This document shows positions 10,047 to 25,983 of a stretch of DNA of 33,475 nt, piece after piece. Location: assembly GCA_018716565.1 (NCBI GenBank), contig DVJT01000076.1:1-33475 (forward strand), read 5' to 3'. Under the pieces are notes generated by a model. That model did not search any database. It was not told the DNA's origin and saw only the letters and a program-made list of their open reading frames with translations. Made by a program: the position numbers and the translations under genes. Every line of letters begins with the position of its first letter. Position 1 is the stretch's first letter. The DNA comes from Candidatus Avigastranaerophilus faecigallinarum (GTDB lineage Bacteria; Cyanobacteriota; Vampirovibrionia; Gastranaerophilales; Gastranaerophilaceae).

Positions 10047-10598
10047 ATGAAAGGTCATTTATATATAGTTGCGGGATGCTCCGGAGTTGGAAAAGGCACT
10101 TTATTAAAGCTTTTCTTAAAGGAAAATCCTGAAATTAAGTTATCAATATCTGCTACAACAAGAAAGCCAAGACAAGGTGAAGAAGATGGTGTAAGCTATT
10201 TTTTTGTATCTAAAGAAGATTTTCAAAAATCTATTGATAATGATGAATTCTTAGAATGGGCAGAATTTAGCGGTAATTTCTATGGAACTAAAAAGAGTTT
10301 TGTAGAAAAAACATTGGCCAAAGGAATAGATTTGATTTTAGAAATTGAAGTTCAAGGTGCAAAACAAGTAAAGGAAAAAATGCCTGAAGCTACTTCAATT
10401 TTTATTATGCCTCCATCTTTAGAAGATTTAGAAAAGCGTTTAAGAGGCAGACATACTGAAAGTGAAGAAGCTATACAACGAAGGCTTAGTGTTGCTGCAA
10501 GAGAAATAGAAGCCGGTAAAAACTTTGATTATCAAATTATTAATGATAACATAGAAGAAGCATTGGCTAATATGCAGAAAATCTTTAATTATAGGTAA
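10047..10598 (+). CDS. gmk: Guanylate kinase
   Basis: AGCSGVGKGTLLKLFL P-loop, SISATTRKPRQGEEDGVSYFFV, ILEIEVQGAKQVKEKMPEATSIFIMPPS. Confidence 0.96.
   Translation: MKGHLYIVAGCSGVGKGTLLKLFLKENPEIKLSISATTRKPRQGEEDGVSYFFVSKEDFQKSIDNDEFLEWAEFSGNFYGTKKSFVEKTLAKGIDLILEIEVQGAKQVKEKMPEATSIFIMPPSLEDLEKRLRGRHTESEEAIQRRLSVAAREIEAGKNFDYQIINDNIEEALANMQKIFNYR
10543..10589 (+). repeat. Copy 1 of duplicated gmk 3' end
   Basis: atgataacatagaagaagcAttggctaatatgcaGaaaatctttaat; matches 11278-11324 at 45/47 positions. Confidence 0.9.
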
Positions 10599-10602
10599 TA
10601 AT

Positions 10603-11148
10603 CTATTGCATATGTATAGATTCTGTTTGTAGTAATTTTGAAACTTCTTCTGAAGTTAGATTTTCTTTCGTTACAGGAATCAATTCTCCTGTAATTGCAT
10701 CTCTATGTACATAATTAATATTATATGTACCATCATCATTTTGTTTTAGTGTTCCAGAACATAGAGATTTATCTGCCATAATTTCTACTTCGGTCATTGT
10801 TTTATATTTTGCTTTTGCACCATAAACAGTTGGTTGTTTTTTTACAGTGTATGTTCCGTCTTCATTTCTTGTAATTAAACTACTAGAACCACAAATTGTT
10901 GGTTTTAGTATAGCACTTCCGTCTGAAAATTTAGTTGCGTTTTTAAATTGTGTATCAAAATTTTTATTATTTGTTATTATGTTTGGATAATAACCCATAA
11001 TTTGAGATGCATTTACAGTTTTTTTATCTTCAATAGGTAAATCTAATTGTTCTTCTTTTGTTTGGTTTGATGTTCCGGTTGTATTACATTCAGTTTTTTG
11101 ATTTATATTATTGTATGTGATTGCTTGTTTAATTTCTCCAATGTTCAT
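10603..11148 (-). CDS. Hypothetical protein
   Basis: 181-aa ORF opposite to flanking genes, with two DGTY(T/N) motifs; ends 5 bp from the gmk stop; no family recognised. Confidence 0.6.
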   Translation of the reverse strand: MNIGEIKQAITYNNINQKTECNTTGTSNQTKEEQLDLPIEDKKTVNASQIMGYYPNIITNNKNFDTQFKNATKFSDGSAILKPTICGSSSLITRNEDGTYTVKKQPTVYGAKAKYKTMTEVEIMADKSLCSGTLKQNDDGTYNINYVHRDAITGELIPVTKENLTSEEVSKLLQTESIHMQ

Positions 11149-11277
11149 TTTTTAATGTCCTTTATTTTATTCTGCTGTATATATAATTAAAGTAAATTTC
11201 TTAAAAAAAATGCTAAGAATAATAAAAAATTATTTTAAACTTAATATCTCTTATAATTTTTAATATATAATTGTTTG

Positions 11278-11324
11278 ATGATAACATAGAAGAAGCGTTG
11301 GCTAATATGCAAAAAATCTTTAAT
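11278..11324 (+). repeat. Copy 2 of duplicated gmk 3' end (just upstream of coaBC)
   Basis: atgataacatagaagaagcGttggctaatatgcaAaaaatctttaat; reads in the Gmk frame ...DDNIEEALANMQKIFNNKG* and is followed by the coaBC ATG. Confidence 0.9.
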
Positions 11325-11339
11325 AATAAAGGGTAAAAA

Positions 11340-12524
11340 ATGCTTAGCGGAAAAAACGTCTTAGTTGGTATAACAGGAGCTATTGCAGCTTATAAAGTTT
11401 GTGAATTGATTCGTTTGTTTAAAAAAAATCATGCAAATGTAAAAGTTGTTGTTACTCCTAATGCATTGAATTTTGTTACTAAGACTACATTAGAATCATT
11501 AAGTCAAAATGCTGTTGATATTGAGCAATTTAATATCAAAGAATATAAGCCTGAACATATAGCTTTGACTGATGAAGCGGATATCTTTGTTATTGCACCT
11601 GCGAGCGCAAATACAATTGCAAAAATGGCTTTAGGAATTTGTGATAATTTATTAACATCAACATTCTGTGCTTTTAAAAAGCCTGTTGTAATAGCACCTT
11701 GTATGAACACAAATATGTGGGAAAATCCCGCTGTAGAAAAAAATATTGAAATTCTAAAGAATAGAGGAATAAAAGTAATTGAACCTGATACTGGCTTTTT
11801 AGCCTGCGGAACTAACGGTAAAGGCAGACTTGCTGATATAAATTTAATTTATGATACTGTTAAAGATATTTTATTGCCTGAACAAATATTAAAAGGTAAA
11901 AAGGTTGTAATAACAGCTGGTGGTACGAAGGAAAATATTGATGCAGTAAGATATATCGGAAATTATTCTTCAGGCAAAATGGGCATTGCATTAGCTGATA
12001 GTGCATATAAACTCGGAGCTGATGTTGTTCTTATTTCTACAGTTGATGTTGATAAAAAATATAAAGTGATAAATGTTCAAACAGCTCAAGAAATGTATGA
12101 TAAAGTAAACGAAGAGTTTAAAGATGCTTATACATTAATTATGGCTGCTGCTGTAAGTGATTATCGGGTAAGAAATAAATCTGAACAAAAAATAAAAAAG
12201 GATGGAAATCCTCTAATAATTGAACTTGTTGAGAATCCTGACATTTTAAAAGAAATGTCTAAAATTAAGCGAAATGACCAAATTGTTGTGGGATTTTGTG
12301 CTGAAAGTCAAAATTTAATGGAATTTGCAAAACAAAAGATTTCAAAGAAAAAATGTGATTATATATGTGCAAATGATATTTCTAAAAAAGACATCGGCTT
12401 CTCGTCAAATGATAATGAATTGTATATAATAGATAAAGAAATGAATGTTTGTCATTTTGAAAAAGCTGATAAACAAATTATAGCTATGAAGATTTTGGAA
12501 AAAATTTATGGAAAAAGTAAGTAA
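11340..12524 (+). CDS. coaBC: Bifunctional phosphopantothenoylcysteine decarboxylase/phosphopantothenate--cysteine ligase
   Basis: GKNVLVGITGAIAAYKVCELIR, APCMNTNMWENPA, ITAGGTKENIDAVRYIGNYSSGKMG. Confidence 0.96.
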   Translation: MLSGKNVLVGITGAIAAYKVCELIRLFKKNHANVKVVVTPNALNFVTKTTLESLSQNAVDIEQFNIKEYKPEHIALTDEADIFVIAPASANTIAKMALGICDNLLTSTFCAFKKPVVIAPCMNTNMWENPAVEKNIEILKNRGIKVIEPDTGFLACGTNGKGRLADINLIYDTVKDILLPEQILKGKKVVITAGGTKENIDAVRYIGNYSSGKMGIALADSAYKLGADVVLISTVDVDKKYKVINVQTAQEMYDKVNEEFKDAYTLIMAAAVSDYRVRNKSEQKIKKDGNPLIIELVENPDILKEMSKIKRNDQIVVGFCAESQNLMEFAKQKISKKKCDYICANDISKKDIGFSSNDNELYIIDKEMNVCHFEKADKQIIAMKILEKIYGKSK

Positions 12525-14330: not shown

Positions 14331-14376
14331 GTTTCAATAAACAAAATAACGAAACTACATATACAGTTGTACTTTT
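14331..14376 (+). repeat. 46-bp direct repeat, copy 1
   Basis: gtttcaataaacaaaataacgaaactacatatacagttgtactttt; 44/46 identical to 14581-14626, exactly 250 bp away. Confidence 0.92.
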
Positions 14377-14454
14377 TTCTTTTTTTATTCAAGTTTTGTT
14401 TAAAATTTACTTCCTAAATTTTGGTTTTTAAATGAACATAATGTAATCTATTAC

Positions 14455-14480
14455 GTACTTTTCTCATTGCAGAAAAGTAC
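14455..14480. other. Perfect 10-bp inverted repeat hairpin
   Basis: GTACTTTTCT-cattgc-AGAAAAGTAC. Confidence 0.85.
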
Positions 14481-14531
14481 CAAAAGGCTAGCAACTTGAT
14501 ATTTCGTTTCTATTTTGTTAATTTCAACCTG

Positions 14532-14573
14532 AAGCTTTGTAACTCGGACTTCGTCCTCAAACAGACAAAGCTT
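14532..14573. other. Nested hairpin
   Basis: Outer stem AAGCTTTGT (14532-14540)/ACAAAGCTT (14565-14573); inner GGAC-ttc-GTCC (14546-14556). Confidence 0.8.
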
Positions 14574-14580
14574 TGATATC

Positions 14581-14626
14581 GTTTCAATAAACAAAATAAC
14601 GAAACTACATATATAGTTGCACTTTT
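14581..14626 (+). repeat. 46-bp direct repeat, copy 2
   Basis: gtttcaataaacaaaataacgaaactacatatatagttgcactttt; see copy 1. Confidence 0.92.
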
Positions 14627-14984: not shown

Positions 14985-15295
14985 CTATTTGCCTCTTCTT
15001 ATATTTCAAAACTTCCGATTTTATTATAAGGCAAAAAATTCAAAATCCTGTTTTTTTAATATATTCTTTATATCGACCCTGAAAATCAATAAAATCAAAT
15101 ATTTTACATTGATTTAGATTATAATTTTTATTGTTATTCATTTAAAAATAGCCCGAATATATAAGATTGATATTACCTTTTGGTGTATTTTTTTCTTCTT
15201 TGAATATGTTTAAACTGTAAATATCCTGAAACTAAATGGAATTTTTCAGGATTTGGGAGTGTGTTCAATAAAAGTCATTGCGGGGTATAGAAAAA

Positions 15296-15604
15296 ATGCT
15301 AGTTGAAAAATACATTAATGGATTAAATCAAAGAAGCCAAATAGAATTCAAGAATATATCTAAAGATATAATTCCTTGGTTAGAGCAAACGGCTTTAGAA
15401 AATAATTGTTTGATAGATAAAAAAGAGTGGAAAAGTAAGTATAACAGTTATGTTATTTATGATTATGAGCCATTTTGTTCTGATGGATTTGAAATAAATG
15501 TTACTGTGTCTTCTCACGATATTAATTATTTGTATTTTTTGAAATTTCTATATGATAACAAATTGGATACTATTGAATATTTGAATAATTGTATAGGTGA
15601 CTAG
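15296..15604 (+). CDS. Hypothetical protein
   Basis: ORF with TTG at 15278; the ATG at 15296 (MLVEKYINGLNQRSQ...) is likelier. No family recognised. Confidence 0.5.
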   Translation: MLVEKYINGLNQRSQIEFKNISKDIIPWLEQTALENNCLIDKKEWKSKYNSYVIYDYEPFCSDGFEINVTVSSHDINYLYFLKFLYDNKLDTIEYLNNCIGD

Positions 15605-16332: not shown

Positions 16333-16561
16333 ATGCTTCAATAAATAATCTTCTGCCTACAATATTGGGTTTACCATTATAATACCCTGCAAAATAACCA
16401 CCTTTTACCGGACGATTAATTGCATAGTTGTTTCTGTTTTGTGGCTGTACAAAAGGATTTTCAAAAGGATTGTATCCTGTATTTGTTGAATTAATATTTT
16501 GAGTAGATACACTTGGAGTGTAGAAAACTTGTGCTACCATATTTTTTAGGTTGTTAATCAT
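16331..16561 (-). CDS. Small hypothetical protein
   Basis: 76-aa ORF with Asn/Pro-rich middle; convergent with the previous gene at a shared terminator. Confidence 0.5.
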   Translation of the reverse strand: MINNLKNMVAQVFYTPSVSTQNINSTNTGYNPFENPFVQPQNRNNYAINRPVKGGYFAGYYNGKPNIVGRRLFIEA

Positions 16562-17074
16562 TTACTTTTCCTTTGTACTTTACACATGTAATTATTAATG
16601 ATAAAACTTACTTTGTCATTATTATACAATTTTTTATTAGAAAAAATTGTAATTTATTATAAAAAATACATCTTTTGTTGTATTCGTTAAAGATAGTTTA
16701 AATTCATGTTTAAAAGCTTCTTTCATGTGGAATAGTCAACTTATAAGTCGCAAAAGAAAACAAAATAAGATATACAAAAATAAATGAATATATTGATATA
16801 ACTTGTATTACCAATTAATATGGGCCGTGTCGTTATACACCGGATTTAATAAAAGTAAGGTATACTGGTTCTATTTGTTTATATTTGTTTTAATTTATCT
16901 TTAATTTTGAATTTGTGATTGAAATAATAAAATAATAATAAAAATAATAGAAACAAAAAGACAACGAATGCCAAATTAAAAAGTAGCAAAAGTTAATAAA
17001 AATTGTTTATAGCCTAGTATTCTATAATGAAATACTGTTGTGCTTTATAGACATTTGTTAAATTTTGTTAATAC

Positions 17075-17103: not shown

Positions 17104-17149
17104 TTACTGGTATTTGGAAAAAGTTTTGAAAAAACGAAAGGTAAAAATT

Positions 17150-17761
17150 ATGAAAAAATTAGGTTTCACCCTTGCCGAAGTTTTAATTACTTTGGTTATC
17201 ATCGGTGTAATCGCTGCTATGACAGTTCCTACATTGATGAACAATACTAATGCTCAAGAATATCGTTCAGCATTAAAGAAAGCTATTGCAGGTTTAAACC
17301 AAGCATTAACATTGAACTATGCTTTAGAAGGTTTATCTGCTCAAGATTATTCAACTGGTACAGCATTAGTTACTGATGTATTTAAGAGAAGAATGAGTGT
17401 AATTGAAGGTGATACATCATTCACTAGTACAGGTTGTGCTGGTTCAGATGTATTTACAACAGCAGATGGTATGATGTTCTGTGTAACAGGTTTCTCTTCT
17501 GCGCAAAATGATGCTCAAGGTTCTATTTGTGACTCATACAATACAACAGGTTGTGTATCTGGTGCTACTGAAGCAAACCCAGCTCCAAGTGCAAATATTT
17601 GGATAGACGTAAACGGTGTTAAAAAACCAAACCAACCAACTACAAATTCTTCAAGACCAAGAGATATTTACCAAGCTACAATTTATGCTCAAAAAGTTGT
17701 TCCTTATGGTGCTCCAACTCAAGGTGTAATGTATGAAAAAGGAACAGATGGTGCTAACTAA
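17150..17761 (+). CDS. Type IV pilin-like / type II secretion major pseudopilin-like protein
   Basis: MKKLGFTLAEVLITLVIIGVIAAMTVPTLMNN prepilin N-terminus. The track start at 17114 is TTG; ATG at 17150 with upstream GAAAGG. Confidence 0.92.
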   Translation: MKKLGFTLAEVLITLVIIGVIAAMTVPTLMNNTNAQEYRSALKKAIAGLNQALTLNYALEGLSAQDYSTGTALVTDVFKRRMSVIEGDTSFTSTGCAGSDVFTTADGMMFCVTGFSSAQNDAQGSICDSYNTTGCVSGATEANPAPSANIWIDVNGVKKPNQPTTNSSRPRDIYQATIYAQKVVPYGAPTQGVMYEKGTDGAN

Positions 17762-25395: not shown

Positions 25396-25983
25396 ATGAA
25401 AAAATTTGCTTTTACATTGTCTGAAGTTCTAATAACATTAGTAATAATAGGTGTAGTAGCAGCTATGACAATTCCGGCGTTTTTAAATAATTCTAATCAA
25501 CAAGAATATAAAAGTGCAATAAAGAAAGCTATTTCTGCTGCTAATCAAGCCTTGATGCAAAATTATGCATTAGAAGGTTTATCTGCTCAAGATTATTCAT
25601 CTGCTGAACTTTTAATATCTGAAGTTTTTTCTAGACGAATGAATGTTATAGATGGTGAATCTACTTTTACTTCATCAGCTTGTAATGGTCCTGTTTTTAC
25701 AACTGAGGATGGAATGATTTATTGTATTACAAATTATTCATCAGCGAACTCAGATGAAGAAGGATTCCCTTGCGATTTTAATAATAAAACACCTTGTATT
25801 GCGTCTGAAGGACCTAATTTATGGATTGATGTAAACGGTGTTAGAAAGCCAAATACTGCAACAACATCATATAAAAGACCCAAAGATATTTATCAAGCAC
25901 AGATATATTCACAAAGAGTTCTTCCTTATGGTGAACCGACTCAGCAAGTTATGTATGAAAAAAATGTTTATGTATCAAATTAG
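25396..25983 (+). CDS. Type IV pilin-like protein, paralog of 17150-17761
   Basis: MKKFAFTLSEVLITLVIIGVVAAMTIPAFLNNSNQQEYKSAIKKAI; collinear similarity along the whole length with the first copy (NYALEGLSAQDYS, LWIDVNGVRKPN, RPKDIYQA, VMYEK). Confidence 0.92.
   Translation: MKKFAFTLSEVLITLVIIGVVAAMTIPAFLNNSNQQEYKSAIKKAISAANQALMQNYALEGLSAQDYSSAELLISEVFSRRMNVIDGESTFTSSACNGPVFTTEDGMIYCITNYSSANSDEEGFPCDFNNKTPCIASEGPNLWIDVNGVRKPNTATTSYKRPKDIYQAQIYSQRVLPYGEPTQQVMYEKNVYVSN

Follow-up and report, generated by a model that had tools for sequence, protein, structure and literature searches.

A one-gene insertion flanked by copies of the gmk 3′ end separates gmk from coaBC in a genome of Candidatus Avigastranaerophilus faecigallinarum

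The insertion between gmk and coaBC in the window (the whole 33,475-nt stretch of DNA that was analysed) looks like a real, clean event of an ordinary kind and not like a new mobile element. A single gene of a genus-restricted family has entered a tight housekeeping operon, probably drawn from the gene pool of the genus through RecA-assisted or template-switch (illegitimate) recombination without a dedicated integrase. The event is polarized, as the site is empty in every informative congener, and it left both neighbouring genes intact. The features of the junction are as follows.

10047–10598, plus strand: gmk (guanylate kinase), intact (Pfam PF00625, E 2.6e-52), with its last codons and stop from the insert by comparison with congener ends
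10543–10589, plus strand: copy A, the functional gmk 3′ end, 45/47 identical to copy B
10590–11277: inserted DNA between the homologous blocks, single copy in the genome (one own-genome DNA match) and absent from all congener junctions
10603–11148, minus strand: 181-aa open reading frame (ORF), convergent with gmk, of a genus-restricted family with function unassigned (homologues, alignment, family HMM)
11149–11277: AT-rich upstream region of the ORF, 13% G+C, ending at copy B
11278–11324, plus strand: copy B, what is left of the native gmk 3′ end, 45/47 identical to copy A
11325–11339, plus strand: native gmk end, AATAAAGGGTAA followed by AAA, containing the AAAGGG ribosome-binding site of coaBC; the same in the four nearest relatives
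11340–12524, plus strand: coaBC, intact (Pfam PF02441 and PF04127)

The recurrence of the gmk 3′ end upstream of coaBC, reported in a preliminary description of this DNA, is borne out, with the Gmk frame kept in the second copy. The identity of 45 of 47 positions is far beyond chance, as 20 random sequences generated from this 2.6-kb region with a first-order model gave 32/47 as their best 47-nt match. The starts of the two copies are 735 nt apart, their longest common exact run is 19 nt, and the two mismatches, GCA/GCG and CAG/CAA, were correctly described as synonymous third-position changes. Translation of copy B in the Gmk frame gives DDNIEEALANMQKIFNNKG and a stop at 11334–11336, with 3 nt between it and the coaBC start codon at 11340; the 6 nt given earlier holds when the three bases of the stop are included in the count. 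Outside the block similarity is that of chance, as 22% of randomly chosen window positions equal the edge-extension score of the 3′ edge and 44% that of the 5′ edge, and an extension of the repeat from 11278 in the 5′ direction to 11255, suggested by BLAST, was rejected as chance-level similarity in A+T-rich DNA. With up to three mismatches allowed, the 45-nt core of the repeat occurs twice in the window genome and once in each of the four nearest congeners, and was not found elsewhere in the genus.

The polarity of the event rests on a sample of 40 congeneric genomes (G001–G040), 37 of which contain both gmk and coaBC; the assemblies of G006, G023 and G028 have neither gene, are uninformative and were left out. 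In all 37 congeners coaBC starts 4–20 nt from the aligned gmk end and the site is empty, as counted at 29 loci and at eight more by coordinates. Where coaBC adjoins gmk in Gastranaerophilales loci of the public genome set, the gap is at most 11 nt. The insert has so far been seen in the window genome only, and with one occupied and 37 empty sites the insertion is therefore derived. Both of its flanks are collinear with G020, G017, G036 and G001 over thousands of bases. These results support the earlier proposal that an ancestral gmk-coaBC pair was split by a one-gene insert that supplied a new gmk end, and the one-copy empty sites that would be expected in relatives are indeed present in all 37. 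Two further suggestions found no such counterpart: no other cargo ORF occupies the gmk-coaBC site in the 37 congeners, and the flanked cargo has no second site, nor the core a further copy, in the genome or the genus.

The ends of the flanking genes indicate which copy is native. The window Gmk ends in KIFNYR, its stop closing at 10598, while the proteins of close relatives end in IFNNKG (KIFNNKG) or IFDNKG; as the window protein has NYR in place of the NNKG of its relatives, the last gmk codons and the stop come from the insert. It is the copy B side that holds the native gmk end with its stop, together with the AAAGGG ribosome-binding site and the start codon of coaBC. In particular, the ribosome-binding site of coaBC sits within the last codons of gmk and overlaps the gmk stop in AAAGGGTAAAAAATG. 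The insert yielded no terminator-like site, and its promoter-like sites do not exceed the frequency expected by chance.

The insert between the blocks measures ~690 nt and the whole insertion 735 bp. The minus-strand 181-aa ORF that had been placed between the copies is confirmed at its position; it ends 4 nt past the gmk stop and has an upstream region of 129 nt. We regard this ORF as a real gene because 18 congeneric genomes contain homologues of it (23–43% identity, the closest being 43% identical) and a family HMM recognizes it, the ORF itself being one of the ten model rows. A weak match also occurs in one genome of another genus. In codon usage the gene is typical of the window. The HMM finds matches in 1 of 41 genera sampled within the taxonomic family, and searches of the family libraries at curated cut-offs gave the ORF no match and no function. 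In the tree the window cargo forms a long branch to which no other member is close, and the structure modelled from the single sequence (mean pLDDT 50.8) is too poor for use. In several congeners, as well as for the second family member of the window genome (L032), the homologue adjoins a radical-SAM gene that we presume to be hemW-like, a name read from the sequence with no database match behind it. This place is apparently the ancestral position of the family, and the cargo at gmk is therefore an additional, divergent member.

Other homologues of the cargo gene are also associated with repeats or with changed surroundings. A 647-bp unit carrying a homologue is 93% identical between L045 of G015 (1303–1949) and L047 of G004 (342–987), where it stands in different flanking DNA. 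The repeats around the L045 homologue were considered as gene-end duplications and rejected, being 75-bp palindrome-like intergenic repeats. At L047 the 5′ end of the homologue and the region upstream of it are duplicated in a perfect repeat of 84 bp. The cargo family may move as single genes.

The allelic state of the repeat bears on how the two copies arose. Copy A matches the allele of G020 across the 45-nt core, and both bases that distinguish copy B are found in congeners, GCG in G001 and G036 and CAA in G017 and G036. Because these bases occur at the same sites in congeners, the comparison, which concerns two sites only, favours two natural gmk alleles over one decaying duplicate. The gmk gene is 97.8% identical to those of G020 and G001 and 92.9–93.5% identical to those of G036 and G017, and coaBC is 95.4–96.5% identical to all four. 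Such shifts in identity among relatives run throughout the region and are not specific to the gmk-coaBC junction, which suggests much recombination within the genus. Both the copy B bases and this mosaic identity are in keeping with the proposed recombination with a divergent gmk, and the claim that the copies diverged while coding stands as one possible reading, as two pre-existing alleles explain the synonymous changes equally well.

The reading that we consider probable is a lineage-specific insertion by recombination, and it is supported by the derived state, by the two alleles that the repeats represent at two sites, by the absence of genes for mobility and by flanking genes whose ends are intact. 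Incoming DNA, for example from natural transformation, would on one side pair with gmk or coaBC and on the other be joined within the gmk 3′ end; alternatively, replication would switch template out of gmk and then back about 47 nt upstream. Either route would yield a complete gmk, the new gene, the gmk end remnant and coaBC, in that order. The duplicated overlap would give gmk a stop and keep for coaBC its ribosome-binding site, so that the insertion could survive. Because of the overlap between the stop of gmk and the ribosome-binding site of coaBC, an insertion would spare both genes only if the shared stretch were duplicated; selection would therefore leave just such events visible, and the duplication thus needs no special mechanism. 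The confinement of the cargo family to one genus of 41 points to a congeneric donor. No donor carrying gmk or coaBC beside the cargo ORF was found, and a search of gmk loci with the family HMM gave none in which the cargo family adjoins gmk; with no donor and a closest homologue of 43% identity, the joining event is beyond reconstruction.

Comparable outcomes are known from other bacteria. Displaced gene ends in Vibrio T6SS effector/immunity arrays and the orphan 3′ ends of Rhs loci have been ascribed to homology-facilitated illegitimate recombination (PMC5361080). As in those loci, new gene material without an integrase here separates a complete gene from a leftover copy of its 3′ end, but the Vibrio and Rhs loci are recurrent, with many cargos that are the variable end of the gene itself (PMC5361080), whereas the cargo at gmk is one unrelated gene set into a housekeeping operon. 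Small variable segments flanked by direct repeats are common in bacteria and have been ascribed to illegitimate recombination (PMC2884548); the gmk insert resembles them in being short, strain-specific and flanked by a direct repeat, although their repeats are mostly <30 bp and the repeat described here is 47 bp long and comprises a gene end beside the ribosome-binding site of the next gene.

Among the points against the recombination reading, a 47-bp repeat sparing a gene end looks equally like the att site of an integrase, and although similarity is lost sharply outside the blocks, no donor was found. The att sites of tyrosine recombinases span 8–60 bp, a range that includes the 47-bp imperfect repeat, and the 3′ ends of housekeeping genes are their usual targets, which one of the repeats spares, while CIMEs are elements of this kind without an integrase (PMC5704250). 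The junction resembles a CIME or a decayed ICE or IME (PMC5704250) in its att-size direct repeats at both insert ends (45/47), in the restored and intact gmk and in the absence of a remaining integrase. The insert could accordingly be a CIME-like remnant or passenger, either left by a tyrosine recombinase that integrated at the gmk 3′ end or moved by an integrase acting in trans on a minimal unit; in the version that invokes deletion, only attL, one cargo gene and attR would be left. The tyrosine recombinase family PF00589 is matched nine times in the window genome, which also has ComEC and DprA family matches, and both general routes are therefore open to it. The halves of the ComEC competence domain are found on separate contigs (G000:C21:34–465 and G000:C179:12304–12642); ComEC is also present in E. 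coli, and its presence is no proof of competence. However, the ~690-nt insert contains no recombinase or integrase or remnant of one and consists of one gene of a chromosomal, genus-specific family, no descent from an ICE or IME and no larger relative was found, and no recognizable integrative element stands at gmk in any relative. Reuse of the site is likewise not seen, as none of 71 other gmk loci has a gene-end duplication (chance 15-mers only) and all 37 congeners are empty. No further core copy exists in the genome, the genus or viral contigs, the insert itself matches nothing among viral contigs, phages and plasmids, and no second copy was recovered in the own-genome DNA search. A literature search for gmk as attB or integration site gave no case, and in one promising paper gmk served as a PCR control. 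The earlier analogy with integrases that restore their target gene is thus unsupported, the insert having no recombinase, the other gmk loci no duplication and the genome no attP-like copy. A CIME-like origin is judged unlikely, if worth weighing, and a minimal one-gene unit without a recombinase, moved in trans by a host tyrosine recombinase that targets and restores the gmk 3′ end, has a small chance of being correct. The insert also differs from insertion sequences and MITEs, as no terminal inverted repeat pairs its two ends and the duplication of 47 bp is not short.

The remaining accounts dispense with foreign homology or with the insertion itself. A purely local event, by a staggered break or replication slippage, would have produced a 47-bp duplication that was identical at first and drifted later; it is simple, needs no donor with gmk homology, and its two substitutions in 47 bp fit the 2–4% divergence from G020. 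Both changes, however, are synonymous, in third position and to bases found in congeners, which would be unlikely for non-coding drift, two sites being a weak test, and a local origin is accordingly thought improbable. Joining of the sequences of two strains in a metagenome-assembled genome has to be considered because the relatives are metagenome assemblies and the window assembly is fragmented, with an estimated contamination of 3.17%. At 19 nt the longest exact shared run is nevertheless too short to make a de Bruijn misjoin likely, the flanks keep their collinearity with relatives over thousands of bases, the ends of both genes are intact and the cargo ORF belongs to a family of the same genus, all of which makes an artefact very improbable.

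With many empty sites and one occupied, insertion by recombination at gmk offers a clean polarized case of a foreign gene entering a tight housekeeping operon with its neighbours unbroken, spared by duplication of the overlap between the end of one gene and the ribosome-binding site of the next. It also shows that a restored gene end and a direct repeat need not imply an integrase, a caution for the automatic calling of att sites.

No other arrangement of a gene end, a single ORF and a non-coding remnant repeat was found in the 613 kb of the window genome that were scanned. At L164 (G000:C17) a 118-bp repeat with 91% identity (15282–15399 and 16539–16655) places a remnant of a gene 3′ end and of the region downstream of it ahead of the intact 372-aa gene; the remnant is probably a displaced or decayed paralogue, and the same layout as at gmk was rejected, as the remnant stands upstream of its gene. 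Elsewhere in the window, at 14331–14626, two 46-nt intergenic repeats beginning GTTTCAATAAACAAAATAACGAAAC (96% identical, spacing 250) enclose ~204 nt. G017 carries a single copy at this site and lacks the DNA in between, and both copies are present in G020 and G036; on this comparison the window is taken to hold, besides the gmk insert, another insertion/deletion polymorphism bounded by repeats. The genes at 17114–17761 and 25396–25983 encode two proteins whose N-termini have methylation motifs like those of type IV pilins, and they share a 294-nt stretch that is 71% identical.
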